Positions 24,019 through 26,412 of a DNA stretch of 36,196 bases are shown in pieces. Below the pieces are notes generated by a model that saw nothing but the letters and a program-made list of their open reading frames with translations, had not been told where the DNA came from and searched no databases. The position numbers and the translations under genes are program-made. Source of the stretch: Opitutus sp. GAS368 (GTDB lineage: Bacteria; Verrucomicrobiota; Verrucomicrobiia; Opitutales; Opitutaceae). Within the stretch, counting starts at the first letter, position 1, and every line of letters begins with the position of its first letter. Location of the stretch: positions 1 to 36,196 of the forward strand of contig CAMBUJ010000013.1 of assembly GCA_945871005.1 (NCBI GenBank), written 5' to 3'.

Positions 24019-26412
24019 TTAGCGCTTTTTGTTGAGGGCGGCGGCGAACCAGTCGCCACCGAGCGATTGAGCCGGCTTGGGGGCGGCGGCAGGCGCGGTC
24101 GCCTGTGCCGGGCGGGCTTGCCCCGGGCTGGTCCGCGGGCCGGCCACCCCGGTCTTCGCCCCCAACTGCGGCGCACTCCGCATCGACAACGCAATCCGCC
24201 CGCGCGCCAAGTCGATTTCGGTCACGGTGACACTGACCTTCTGCCCGGGCTTCACCACCGCCGCCGGGTCTTTGACAAAACTGTCCGCCAGCTGCGACAC
24301 ATGGACCAACCCGTCCTGGTGCACGCCGATGTCCACGAACGCCCCGAAGGCGGTCACGTTGGTCACCAAACCGGGCAACTTCATGCCGGGCTTCAAATCC
24401 TCGGGCTTGTTCACGCCTTCCTGGAAACTGAAGGACTCGAACTTTTCGCGCGGGTCGCGGCCGGGTTTGGCCAACTCAGCCAAGATGTCGGTGAGCGTCG
24501 GCAAACCGACCGCCTCGGTAACGTAGGCGGCGAGGTTGATCTTTTTGCGCAGCTTTTCGTCACGCAACAGGTCGGCCACGGTGCAACCGATGTCGGCGGC
24601 CATTTTCTCCACCAGCGCGTAACGCTCAGGGTGCACCGCCGAGGCGTCGAGCGGGTGCGCGGCGTCGTGGATGCGCAGGAAGCCGGCGGCCTGTTCGAAG
24701 GCCTTGGGGCCGAGCCCGGAAACCTCCAGCAGGTCGGCGCGGGTCTTGAAGGCGCCCTTGTCGTTGCGGCGGGCCACGATGGCGGCGGCGCTGCGGCTGT
24801 TGAGCCCGGACACTTGGGCGAGCAACTGCTTGGAGGCGGTGTTAATCTCCACGCCCACGCCGTTCACGCAGGAAATCACGGTGTCATCGAGGCAACGCTT
24901 GAGGGCGTTCTGGTCGACGTCGTGTTGGTATTGGCCCACGCCGATGCTCTTCGGGTCGAGCTTTACCAGTTCGGCGAGCGGATCCATCAGTCGGCGGCCG
25001 ATCGACACGGCTCCGCGCACCGTCAGGTCGTGGTCGGGAAACTCTTCGCGGGCCACCTCGCTGGCCGAATAAATCGACGCGCCCGACTCGTTGACCATGA
25101 CCACGGTGATCGAGGCCGGGAGCTTCATACCGCGGATAAACGCCTCGGTTTCGCGACCGGCGGTGCCGTTGCCGATGGCGATGGCCTCGATTTTGAAGAA
25201 CTCGATGAAGCCTTTGATCTTCTCGGTGGCCTCGACCTCGTGGCGGTCGGGATAAACCACGTCGTTGTGCAACAGTTTGCCCTGGCGATCGAGAATCACG
25301 GTTTTGCAACCGGTGCGGAAACCCGGGTCGAGGGCGAGCACGGCGCGCTGGCCGAGCGGGGCGGCCAGGAGCAATTCGCGGGCGTTATCGGCGAACACCT
25401 TGATCGCGTCGGCGTCGGCCTTCTTTTTGGAATCGAGGCGGAACTCCGTTTCCATCGCCGGGGCGAGCAGGCGCTTGAGGGCGTCGGCCAGCATCAGGCG
25501 CAGCTGCGCAGCCGACGTGGCCGCCGGCTGCGCAGCGATCTGAGATTTCACATTTGAGATCTCAGATTTGATGAACAGGCGCTCGAGTTCGGCGAGCGAG
25601 AGCAGCTCGTCGACGGTGATGCGCATCATCAAAAACAGCTCCTTTTCGCCGCGGCGCATGGCCAGCAGGCGGTGCGAGGGGCACTTGGCGAGCGGCTCCG
25701 ACCACTCGAAGTAGTCCTTGAACTTGGCGCCCTCGACCTCCTTGCCGCCGATTACCTTGGAGGTGACCACGGCGGATTCGCGGTAAATGGCGCGGAGTTT
25801 TTCACGCGCCGTGGCATCGTCGCTGACGCGCTCGGCGAGGATGTCGCGGGCCCCGGCGAAGGCCTCCTCGGGGGTGGCGATTTTCTGCTTGGGGGTGGGC
25901 GGGGATTTGCCGTCGTCGGGCTGGTATTCGTGGCCGACGAAGGCCTGCGCGGCGGCGGCCAAGTCGGTGGCGGGATCTTGGGCCCAGATGAGTTCGGCGA
26001 GGGGCTCGAGGCCCTTTTCCTTGGCGATGGTGGCGCGGGTGCGCTTCTTGGGGCGGAACGGCAGGTAGATGTCCTCGAGGCGGGTGAGGGTTTCGGCGAG
26101 AGCGATCGCGTTATCTAAGGCGGGAGTGAGCAGGCCGCGCTCCTTGAGCGAGGAGAGGATCACGGCGCGGCGTTCGTCGAGCTGGGCAAGTTGCTCGAGA
26201 CGGTCGCGGATCGTGGTGATCTGGACCTCGTCGAGTTCGCCGGTGGCCTCCTTGCGGTAGCGGGCGATGAAGGGGACGGTGGCGCCCTCCTTGAGCAACT
26301 GGGCGGTCGTGGCGACCTGGTGGACTTTGACCGAAGGCCCCAACTCTTTGACGATGAGGAGGACGTGGTCGGCGTTGGGGAGCGAGGCGGGGAGGGCGGT
26401 GGGTTCAGCCAT
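24019..26412 (-). CDS. tex: Tex family RNA-binding transcription accessory protein
   Basis: A 797-residue cytoplasmic protein of the Tex/Spt6-like family, which binds nucleic acid and influences transcription and RNA turnover. Visible regions are the N-terminal helical domain with TVPFIARYRKEATGELDE (about residues 46-63) and PFRPKKRTRATIAKEKGLEPLA. The YqgF-like RNase H fold contains ALDPGFRTGCKTVILD, followed by the helix-hairpin-helix region (QLLAQVSGLNSRSAAAIV; VSGLGPKAFEQAAGFLRI). Last is an S1 domain near residues 670-745 (LPGLVTNVTAFGAFVDIGVHQDGLVHVSQL). The start is the ATG at 26412; the longer frame to 26553 begins in the divergent promoter region. A heptamer repeat inserts SEISNVKSQIAAQPAATS near residues 281-300. 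The C-terminal tail is Ala/Pro/Gln-rich. Confidence 0.96.
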   Translation of the reverse strand: MAEPTALPASLPNADHVLLIVKELGPSVKVHQVATTAQLLKEGATVPFIARYRKEATGELDEVQITTIRDRLEQLAQLDERRAVILSSLKERGLLTPALDNAIALAETLTRLEDIYLPFRPKKRTRATIAKEKGLEPLAELIWAQDPATDLAAAAQAFVGHEYQPDDGKSPPTPKQKIATPEEAFAGARDILAERVSDDATAREKLRAIYRESAVVTSKVIGGKEVEGAKFKDYFEWSEPLAKCPSHRLLAMRRGEKELFLMMRITVDELLSLAELERLFIKSEISNVKSQIAAQPAATSAAQLRLMLADALKRLLAPAMETEFRLDSKKKADADAIKVFADNARELLLAAPLGQRAVLALDPGFRTGCKTVILDRQGKLLHNDVVYPDRHEVEATEKIKGFIEFFKIEAIAIGNGTAGRETEAFIRGMKLPASITVVMVNESGASIYSASEVAREEFPDHDLTVRGAVSIGRRLMDPLAELVKLDPKSIGVGQYQHDVDQNALKRCLDDTVISCVNGVGVEINTASKQLLAQVSGLNSRSAAAIVARRNDKGAFKTRADLLEVSGLGPKAFEQAAGFLRIHDAAHPLDASAVHPERYALVEKMAADIGCTVADLLRDEKLRKKINLAAYVTEAVGLPTLTDILAELAKPGRDPREKFESFSFQEGVNKPEDLKPGMKLPGLVTNVTAFGAFVDIGVHQDGLVHVSQLADSFVKDPAAVVKPGQKVSVTVTEIDLARGRIALSMRSAPQLGAKTGVAGPRTSPGQARPAQATAPAAAPKPAQSLGGDWFAAALNKKR
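25503..25571. repeat. Heptamer array and GC-rich inverted repeat inside tex
   Basis: Five in-phase heptamers (GATCTGA, GATTTCA, CATTTGA, GATCTCA, GATTTGA) occupy 25537-25571. They are preceded by a perfect 12-bp inverted repeat, GCTGCGCAGCCG with its mirror arm, at 25503-25536. The same A/T heptamer type occurs in gltB at 22311-22388. The insertion keeps the tex frame and falls in a linker ahead of ADALKRLLAPAMETEFR. Confidence 0.85.

Follow-up and report, generated by a model that had tools for sequence, protein, structure and literature searches.

Rickettsia palindromic elements are inserted in frame at tolerated positions of unrelated proteins and share a consensus of fixed length. Here we describe an array of degenerate heptamers that lies in frame within the gene tex, in a 36,196-nt stretch of DNA (hereafter the window) from an Opitutaceae genome available as a draft assembly of 305 contigs (3.48 Mb, 91.7% complete). 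In the sections of PMC4692102 (2015) drawn on here, the heptamers GGGAATC of Xanthomonas and GGGGA(C/T)T of Nostoc are described as degenerate, dispersed and mostly intergenic 7-bp units, with two nearby arrays in convergent orientation in 70 and 75 cases. Excerpts of PMC3733652 (2013) name the Rickettsia elements and describe repetitive extragenic palindromes (REPs) with GTAG or CGTC tags, including intragenic ones in Opitutus terrae, as well as REP dimers nested in longer palindromes in A. variabilis. Excerpts of two further papers describe degenerate heptanucleotides, variable in copy number, that form a hairpin by base pairing in the P6b element of a Nostoc intron (tRNA-Leu; PMC3488679), and the TAACTGA heptamers of Beggiatoaceae, which occupy many spacers as direct repeats, mostly upstream of genes, with one inverted repeat reported (PMC4679880).

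The segment in tex is probably a recent insertion of a dispersed, non-autonomous palindrome whose arms consist of degenerate tandem heptamers (family A, GATTTSA and variants). The words of this family are dispersed in the genome, missing from tex of the sister species and in frame, and they form a hairpin beside a site-specific GC-rich hairpin; the genome carries several such families, denoted A to D. The main effect of an insertion is most likely the placement of a stable hairpin in DNA and mRNA, which in tex amounts to a longer tolerant linker.

The heptamer array in tex and its word family

24019..26553, minus strand: tex, the host gene; open reading frame (ORF) with the Pfam domains Tex_N, Tex_central_region, Tex_YqgF, HHH and S1
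25538..25571, minus strand: family A heptamer array in tex, encoding KSEISNVKSQI; about 30 bp missing from sister species
25503..25536, minus strand: GC-rich palindrome adjoining the tex array, with 15-nt arms and a 4-nt loop; no such palindrome in sisters

An earlier reading of the sequence alone (the sequence-only reading) placed heptamers and a perfect 12-bp inverted repeat at 25503-25571, and both the sequence and an inverted-repeat scan bear this out. The arms of the GC palindrome (25503-25517 and 25522-25536) are 93% complementary, with the outer 12 bp perfect, around the 4-nt loop. The heptamer part is itself an inverted repeat, with 13-nt arms (25538-25550 and 25555-25567, 92%) and a 4-nt loop, and the region is predicted to fold into two back-to-back hairpins that are separated by 1 nt and have loops of 4 nt. 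The z-score of this fold is -7.0 for RNA and -6.5 for DNA, with 0 of 200 shuffles equal in either case. The translation across the region reads ...FIKSEISNVKSQIAAQP.... The array is enriched in variant ATCT words and is not matched by the strict family A pattern (GATTTSARATTTSARAT), which does match the gltB array described below; GTAG is not present in it.

The mapping of the insertion in orthologs shows the array to be recent and in frame: the segment is absent from all 11 tex loci of the same genus (12 genomes were searched, and G134 gave no tex match). The sisters G408 and G413, which belong to this genus and have tex DNA 88% identical to that of the window, read TTCATCAAAGCCA at the site, and the window tex is 36 bp longer there. 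We parse the additional 36 bp as a heptamer hairpin of about 30 bp, placed after ATCAAA, and 6 bp within the GC palindrome. Nor is the segment conserved in Tex of other phyla, a finding that would have spoken against recent spread: none of the 80 named Tex relatives carries it. The best of them, an Opitutaceae metagenome-assembled genome, has 75% identity, an indication that the window belongs to this bacterial family or lies close to it. The strict patterns of the four families match only one of these 80 loci (L098, a family C match), so the named relatives say little about the distribution of the arrays. Several of 29 tex loci from elsewhere in the bacterial family have unrelated longer linkers at the site, which marks it as a tolerant linker; the corresponding stretch of the solved Tex structure 3bzc aligns poorly.

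22310..22392, minus strand: gltB palindrome of family A, with a GC-rich loop between two heptamer arms

The claim that gltB holds an array related to that in tex stands, as gltB reads ...NLKSEISDLKS... at 22310-22392, about 3.1 kb from the array in tex; this array is missing from 29 aligned GltB relatives and from G408. Further copies in the genome, whose absence would have contradicted the proposed spread to new sites, were readily found. Near-copies of the tex core (30 bp, 25538-25567) occur at L019 with one mismatch, at L020, L023 and L227 with three, and in 11 rows with four or five, whereas the core read backwards gives none. The strict pattern gives 43 matches in the 3.48-Mb genome and its reversed control 0 (dispersal is counted here and below as overlapping matches of a strict word pattern, with the reversed pattern as control). 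Across the class, 68 of 286 genomes contain family A, the control giving one match in one genome, and the distribution of the family is patchy, with 43 matches in this genome vs 0 in G041 of the same genus.

Peptides of the SEISNLKS type, the subject of a search proposed with the sequence-only reading, occur in 28 rows for long ORFs of the genome, spurious short ORFs included, and in about 13 genes. Together with the near-copies, these hosts bear out spread to new sites for one word family. The hosts with Pfam support are Tex, GltB, a nitrite/sulfite reductase, a flavin amine oxidase, a sulfatase, UvrA, an AMP-binding enzyme, a WD40 protein, a monomeric isocitrate dehydrogenase, a 4Fe-4S/DmsC protein, HsdM, a carboxyltransferase and a dehydrogenase E2, in the last of which the arrays separate the lipoyl, E3-binding and catalytic domains from one another. 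The copies range from about 30 bp (tex) to more than 100 bp, differ in their loops and neighbours, and at some sites (gltB, L020) form trains of hairpins. A fold z-score below -3 was obtained for 12 of 22 family A sites vs 4 of 59 background windows, two of the 24 sites having been left out as duplicate or too long. At two contig ends (L227 in C207 and L229 in C282), the assembly stops close to one and the same family A array, located in a gene for a carboxyltransferase; this is probably one gene, at which the repeat broke the assembly. Assembly faults are possible at single sites of such a draft, and unlikely across a pattern of many sites.

Other word families, reading frames and shared slots

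18450..18565, no strand assigned: intergenic palindrome of family B (GTTGRAN), with one arm at 18450-18487 and the other at 18526-18565
21220..21331, minus strand: family C array (AGCTNNK) in gltB; common to sister G408, the window copy being 21 bp (three units) longer
27431..27525, no strand assigned: family D palindrome (GTARYGR); 32-nt arms, 91%; atpD-atpC spacer; other words in the sisters' slot
29870..29964, no strand assigned: family D palindrome; atpA-atpG spacer; the slot holds other words in some sisters and D in others

The sequence-only reading makes no mention of families B, C and D in the window. In the whole genome, their patterns match 7, 49 and 128 times, respectively, with 0 matches for each reversed control. 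Family D is found in 27 of 286 genomes of the class; its reversed control also rings in 18 of the 286, sometimes more strongly, so that D matches outside the bacterial family studied may be other heptamers. Family D is an element and not mere repetition. Its 69 arrays (loci of this genome and the window) resolve into 22 facing pairs and 25 singles, and its neighbouring arrays point inward in 37 cases vs outward in 0 (overlapping loci being counted more than once). The order of units is kept in the majority, with CGA in the first and fourth positions and mostly CGG or TGA in the two between, and the inner GAGCAT junction also occurs in two other genera (L255, L257) and not in L246-L254. Inverted arms are carried by the window copy of family B and the gltB copy of family A as well.

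The families differ in their access to coding sequence. The array sites surveyed are those in the loci and stretches examined, with D sites taken from among the matches listed of the 128 and C sites drawn from part of the C-bearing contigs, and the gene calls behind the ORF and spacer counts come from a home-made ORF selection. Sites inside ORFs number 14 of 23 for A, 3 of 9 for C, 2 of 38 for D, 0 of 4 for B and 0 of 1 for a mixed AD site, that is, 17 of 32 for A and C vs 2 of 43 for the remainder (p 2e-6). This p value comes from a Fisher test of A+C vs B+D+AD; for the slots scored with Tandem Repeats Finder (TRF), a binomial test was used. Because 7 is coprime to 3, every frame of a regular array gives one and the same heptapeptide, and what matters is whether the words contain stops: GATTTGA is stop-free on one strand, GATTTCA on the other and GAGCTGG on both, and every D word contains a stop on one of its strands. 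A D palindrome can hardly stay open, since it presents arms of both kinds on either strand. From the genetic code and these counts, it is likely that families with stop-free words (A and the G-rich C) survive in ORFs and that those bearing TAG or TGA (D and much of B) keep to spacers. Between divergent genes, D is found at 0 of 32 classifiable sites vs 96 of 490 spacers of the sister genome G408 (p 0.0009).

A comparison with relatives reveals what occupies the same positions elsewhere. In 12 atp loci of the genus, including that of the window, the atpD-atpC and atpA-atpG spacers hold D, other palindromes or nothing, as judged by eye (for L299, the spacer between atpA and atpG could not be read); the alternatives are built of 9-bp (CACGAAACA-like), 10-bp (CACTAATGAA-like) or 6-bp (CTTTCG-like) units or are other palindromes. 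A separate survey of 520 kb of G408 (L300-L305, L325-L344) recorded 26 period-9 and 12 period-10 arrays by TRF vs 2 and 0 in shuffled DNA, among them AAAGAACGC, CACAGATTA and CGCTAATGGA.

For 75 array sites of the genome together with tex, 26 pairs of site and ortholog were obtained in 1.71 Mb of G408, the portion covered by the slot comparison; site 55, which shares a gene region with site 58, and a row for a paralog of site 2 were set aside before the count. The 11 slots that contain D in the window's genome hold another family in G408 in nine cases, D in one and no array in one, the nine having been scored by eye with no equal by-eye background and including a weak array (site 62) and a single short arm (site 72). 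TRF reports an array in 5 of 10 of these slots vs 63 of 490 spacers (p 0.005), or in 6 of 11 (p 0.001) if site 58, whose G408 slot spans 2157 bp, is included. Folding gives z below -3 in 6 of 8 slots (six D, two A) vs 86 of 260 background spacers (p 0.02), seven of 15 pairs having been left out beforehand as genic, duplicate or long; the contrast is modest because hairpins are dense in G408 spacers.

In the genic slots of family A, G408 carries an in-frame C array in the amine oxidase gene (L007); at L016 it has an in-frame CAAATCC heptamer, one letter from A, and at L005 a C array of ambiguous frame. The G408 orthologs of tex, gltB and E2 have no array at their family A slots. The non-ORF slots L026, L028 and L226 hold other palindromes, that of L226 without tandem words, and all four C sites hold C again. 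Re-use of slots above background is likely, not proven. As a tentative proposal, to which we give less than even weight, the spacers of the genus could be persistent palindrome slots, in which the position of the hairpin is kept and the word family is replaced by an unrelated one (6-11-bp units), at least once also in frame within a gene (A here and C in G408 in the amine oxidase of L007); something would then keep or attract hairpins, and fold-back synthesis there would make the adjoining GC hairpins.

Junction palindromes and the origin of the arrays

22294..22308, minus strand: GC palindrome GGCGCC...GGCGCC adjoining the gltB array
22393..22407, minus strand: GC palindrome GGCGGC...GCCGCC adjoining the other side of the gltB array

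The GC palindromes next to the arrays had been suggested to be part of the element. That they adjoin the heptamers, and recur in the genome beyond what composition explains, is supported; that they are a fixed part of one element is not, as their sequence differs from site to site. In 40-bp flanks scored by their best inverted repeat against dinucleotide shuffles, the first run of 46 family A flanks (24 arrays) gave a mean of 6.26 vs 5.22, equalled by 0 of 60 shuffle means, with eight flanks reaching score 8 vs 3.0 expected, one of which (the right flank of L001) is heptamer sequence. When the nine of 46 flanks holding heptamer words were dropped, the remaining 37 gave 6.43 vs 5.30 (0 of 200 shuffle means equal), with 7 of 37 scoring at least 8 vs 2.7 expected. 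In 11 of these heptamer-free flanks, which score at least 7, the palindromes lie 0, 1 or 4 bp from the array, distances that were noted after they had been seen. Flanks of family C show no excess (4.06 vs 4.05 shuffled, reached by 33 of 60 means). A fixed GC module of the element is ruled out by the site-specific sequences and by the absence of the palindrome from the sisters' tex. In tex, the outer arm is, by eye, closer to the sisters' sequence than the inner arm, and the palindrome looks as if it had been made at the junction, perhaps by fold-back synthesis there. Copies of the arrays may arise by single-strand, replication-coupled copying, and fold-back template switching at the junction might turn flanking DNA into the adjoining GC hairpins; both steps are less certain than the link between stop-free words and survival in ORFs.

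Several results weigh against the insertion of a mobile palindrome and against this route. No enzyme that moves the arrays was found, the lone Y1/RAYT-type gene (RAYT, REP-associated tyrosine transposase) being flanked by other palindromes, and at the empty site of tex, the one site viewed for this, no target duplication of the kind that accompanies the terminal inverted repeats of a miniature inverted-repeat transposable element (MITE) is visible by eye. The fold-back reading draws on one site with clean orthologs (tex) and a statistical excess, and weaker departures from the shuffles are seen elsewhere: random positions score 4.47 vs 4.39 (4 of 60 means reach it) and D flanks 4.08 vs 3.94 (4 of 60), with score 8 in 2 of 75 D flanks vs 0.12 expected. 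Arms within one D element are 0.887 alike vs 0.883 between elements, a value reached by 1767 of 5000 shuffles; arm-to-arm copying within D elements is therefore unsupported and was rejected.

Other origins of the arrays have to be weighed against the same data. It is unlikely that they are REPs, or the bacterial interspersed mosaic elements (BIMEs) composed of REPs, mobilized by a RAYT in the manner of the GTAG REPs of O. terrae, some of which are intragenic. According to the sections of PMC3733652 considered, that species is rich in GTAG repeats and has the highest number of intragenic ones, uvrA included; the D units begin with GTAG, and the window's genome has one RAYT-type gene. However, a GTAG tag is missing from family A, a D array pairs with the opposite one rather than forming a short stem-loop by itself (by eye), and the RAYT gene is flanked by another palindrome, with no heptamer array among the repeats of its locus. 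Ordinary microsatellites that grew in place by slipped-strand replication would explain why unit number varies, as in the three-unit difference between sisters in the C array of gltB, and why period-7 arrays number 11 vs 0 in shuffles in the 520 kb of G408; heptamer-prone slippage is also proposed in the consulted parts of PMC4692102 and PMC4679880. Such growth would account neither for words shared by many unrelated loci and by 68 of the 286 genomes nor for the inward-facing pairs of inverted D arrays, whose inner junction is conserved, and we regard it as a quite improbable source of the arrays, although slippage can still account for changes in unit number.

For tex itself, the array could have been gained by recombination with an array-bearing tex, such as that of G030 from the genus g31. 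Among the 29 other loci of the bacterial family that were aligned, this one (L180) carries a family A array of its own at that very codon of Tex, which, while 11 loci of the window's genus are without one, reflects either recurrent insertion or transfer. By residues, however, the whole Tex is nearest to its own genus (G041, G117 and G097, 89-91%; DNA 88% for G408 and G413) vs 78% for G030, and the G030 array differs in its words and in the residues that follow, so that we give this origin scarcely any credence. Insertion of a dispersed palindrome stays the reading we favour for the tex segment.

The RAYT-type gene deserves a separate description. At L245, a 219-aa ORF that gives the genome's one PF01797 match lies between GC-rich palindromes of one family (GCCGAGCTGGAGCTC) at 1362-1425 and 2111-2181, which are likely the REP family of this RAYT; similar sequence follows D arrays in L202. 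The gene was considered as an evident mover of the heptamer arrays and rejected, its flanking inverted repeats being another family. Two further repeats were recorded in the window: a 110-bp unit in tandem at 1131-1544 (3.8 copies, 94% matches), and 12-bp repeats at 32931-32974 that encode a His/Asp-rich tail (HGDDHADDHGDDHG) in a 291-aa ORF of the atp operon (32913-33788).

Comparison with described repeats

If the reading of the arrays is true, housekeeping proteins are lengthened by palindromic DNA that is frame-neutral through its 7-bp period, which provides a simple rule for entry into genes. The swapping of words at fixed slots would make directly testable the long-standing question of whether such repeats are kept for the hairpin or merely tolerated, and a hairpin whose position is conserved while its sequence is not would show repeats evolving in a new mode. 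Five peptide strings encoded by the arrays do not occur in the literature searched, and among the leading matches, by titles and abstract openings, no description of such elements in Verrucomicrobia was found besides PMC3733652; PMC4060949, a survey that mentions Verrucomicrobia, was considered by its listing.

The likeness to Rickettsia palindromic elements proposed in the sequence-only reading holds for behaviour and fails for membership. Insertion into ORFs is in frame and at tolerated sites in both cases, as seen in tex against the 11 loci of the genus and in the approximately 13 hosts of family A; the Rickettsia elements have a consensus of fixed length, whereas length and words vary here. 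The GTAG REPs, as far as the cited sections of PMC3733652 go, are likewise palindromic repeats of the same bacterial family, found in spacers and in ORFs such as uvrA, but they consist of a tetranucleotide tag and a stem of mostly 6-9 bp, whereas the present elements have tandem-word arms, with no tag in A; a tag with a short stem-loop, and a flanking RAYT, are found for neither the tex array nor family D. The repeats of the Nostoc P6b element are similar in that heptanucleotides pair into a hairpin, and differ in that PMC3488679, in the part considered, places them at one intron locus, in contrast to the genome-wide dispersal seen here. The TAACTGA heptamers of Beggiatoaceae share the dispersal and are, in the excerpts of PMC4679880, direct repeats.

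The heptamers of Xanthomonas and Nostoc come close to family D, which, like the Xanthomonas type, consists of dispersed, degenerate 7-bp units in convergent pairs. In the sections of PMC4692102 cited, however, the repeat is one G-rich word, read as a quadruplex, whereas several unrelated words coexist here, including the AT-rich family A, whose units hold no G run and are not of the G-rich quadruplex type. Also unlike the account given there, the present arrays have about 13 protein-coding hosts for family A, hairpins at their junctions and different words per slot in sister species. Paired heptamer arrays are already known from Xanthomonas, as are intragenic palindromic repeats from Opitutus; the coexistence of families, the frame-neutral entry into genes, the junction hairpins and the swapping of words are new here.

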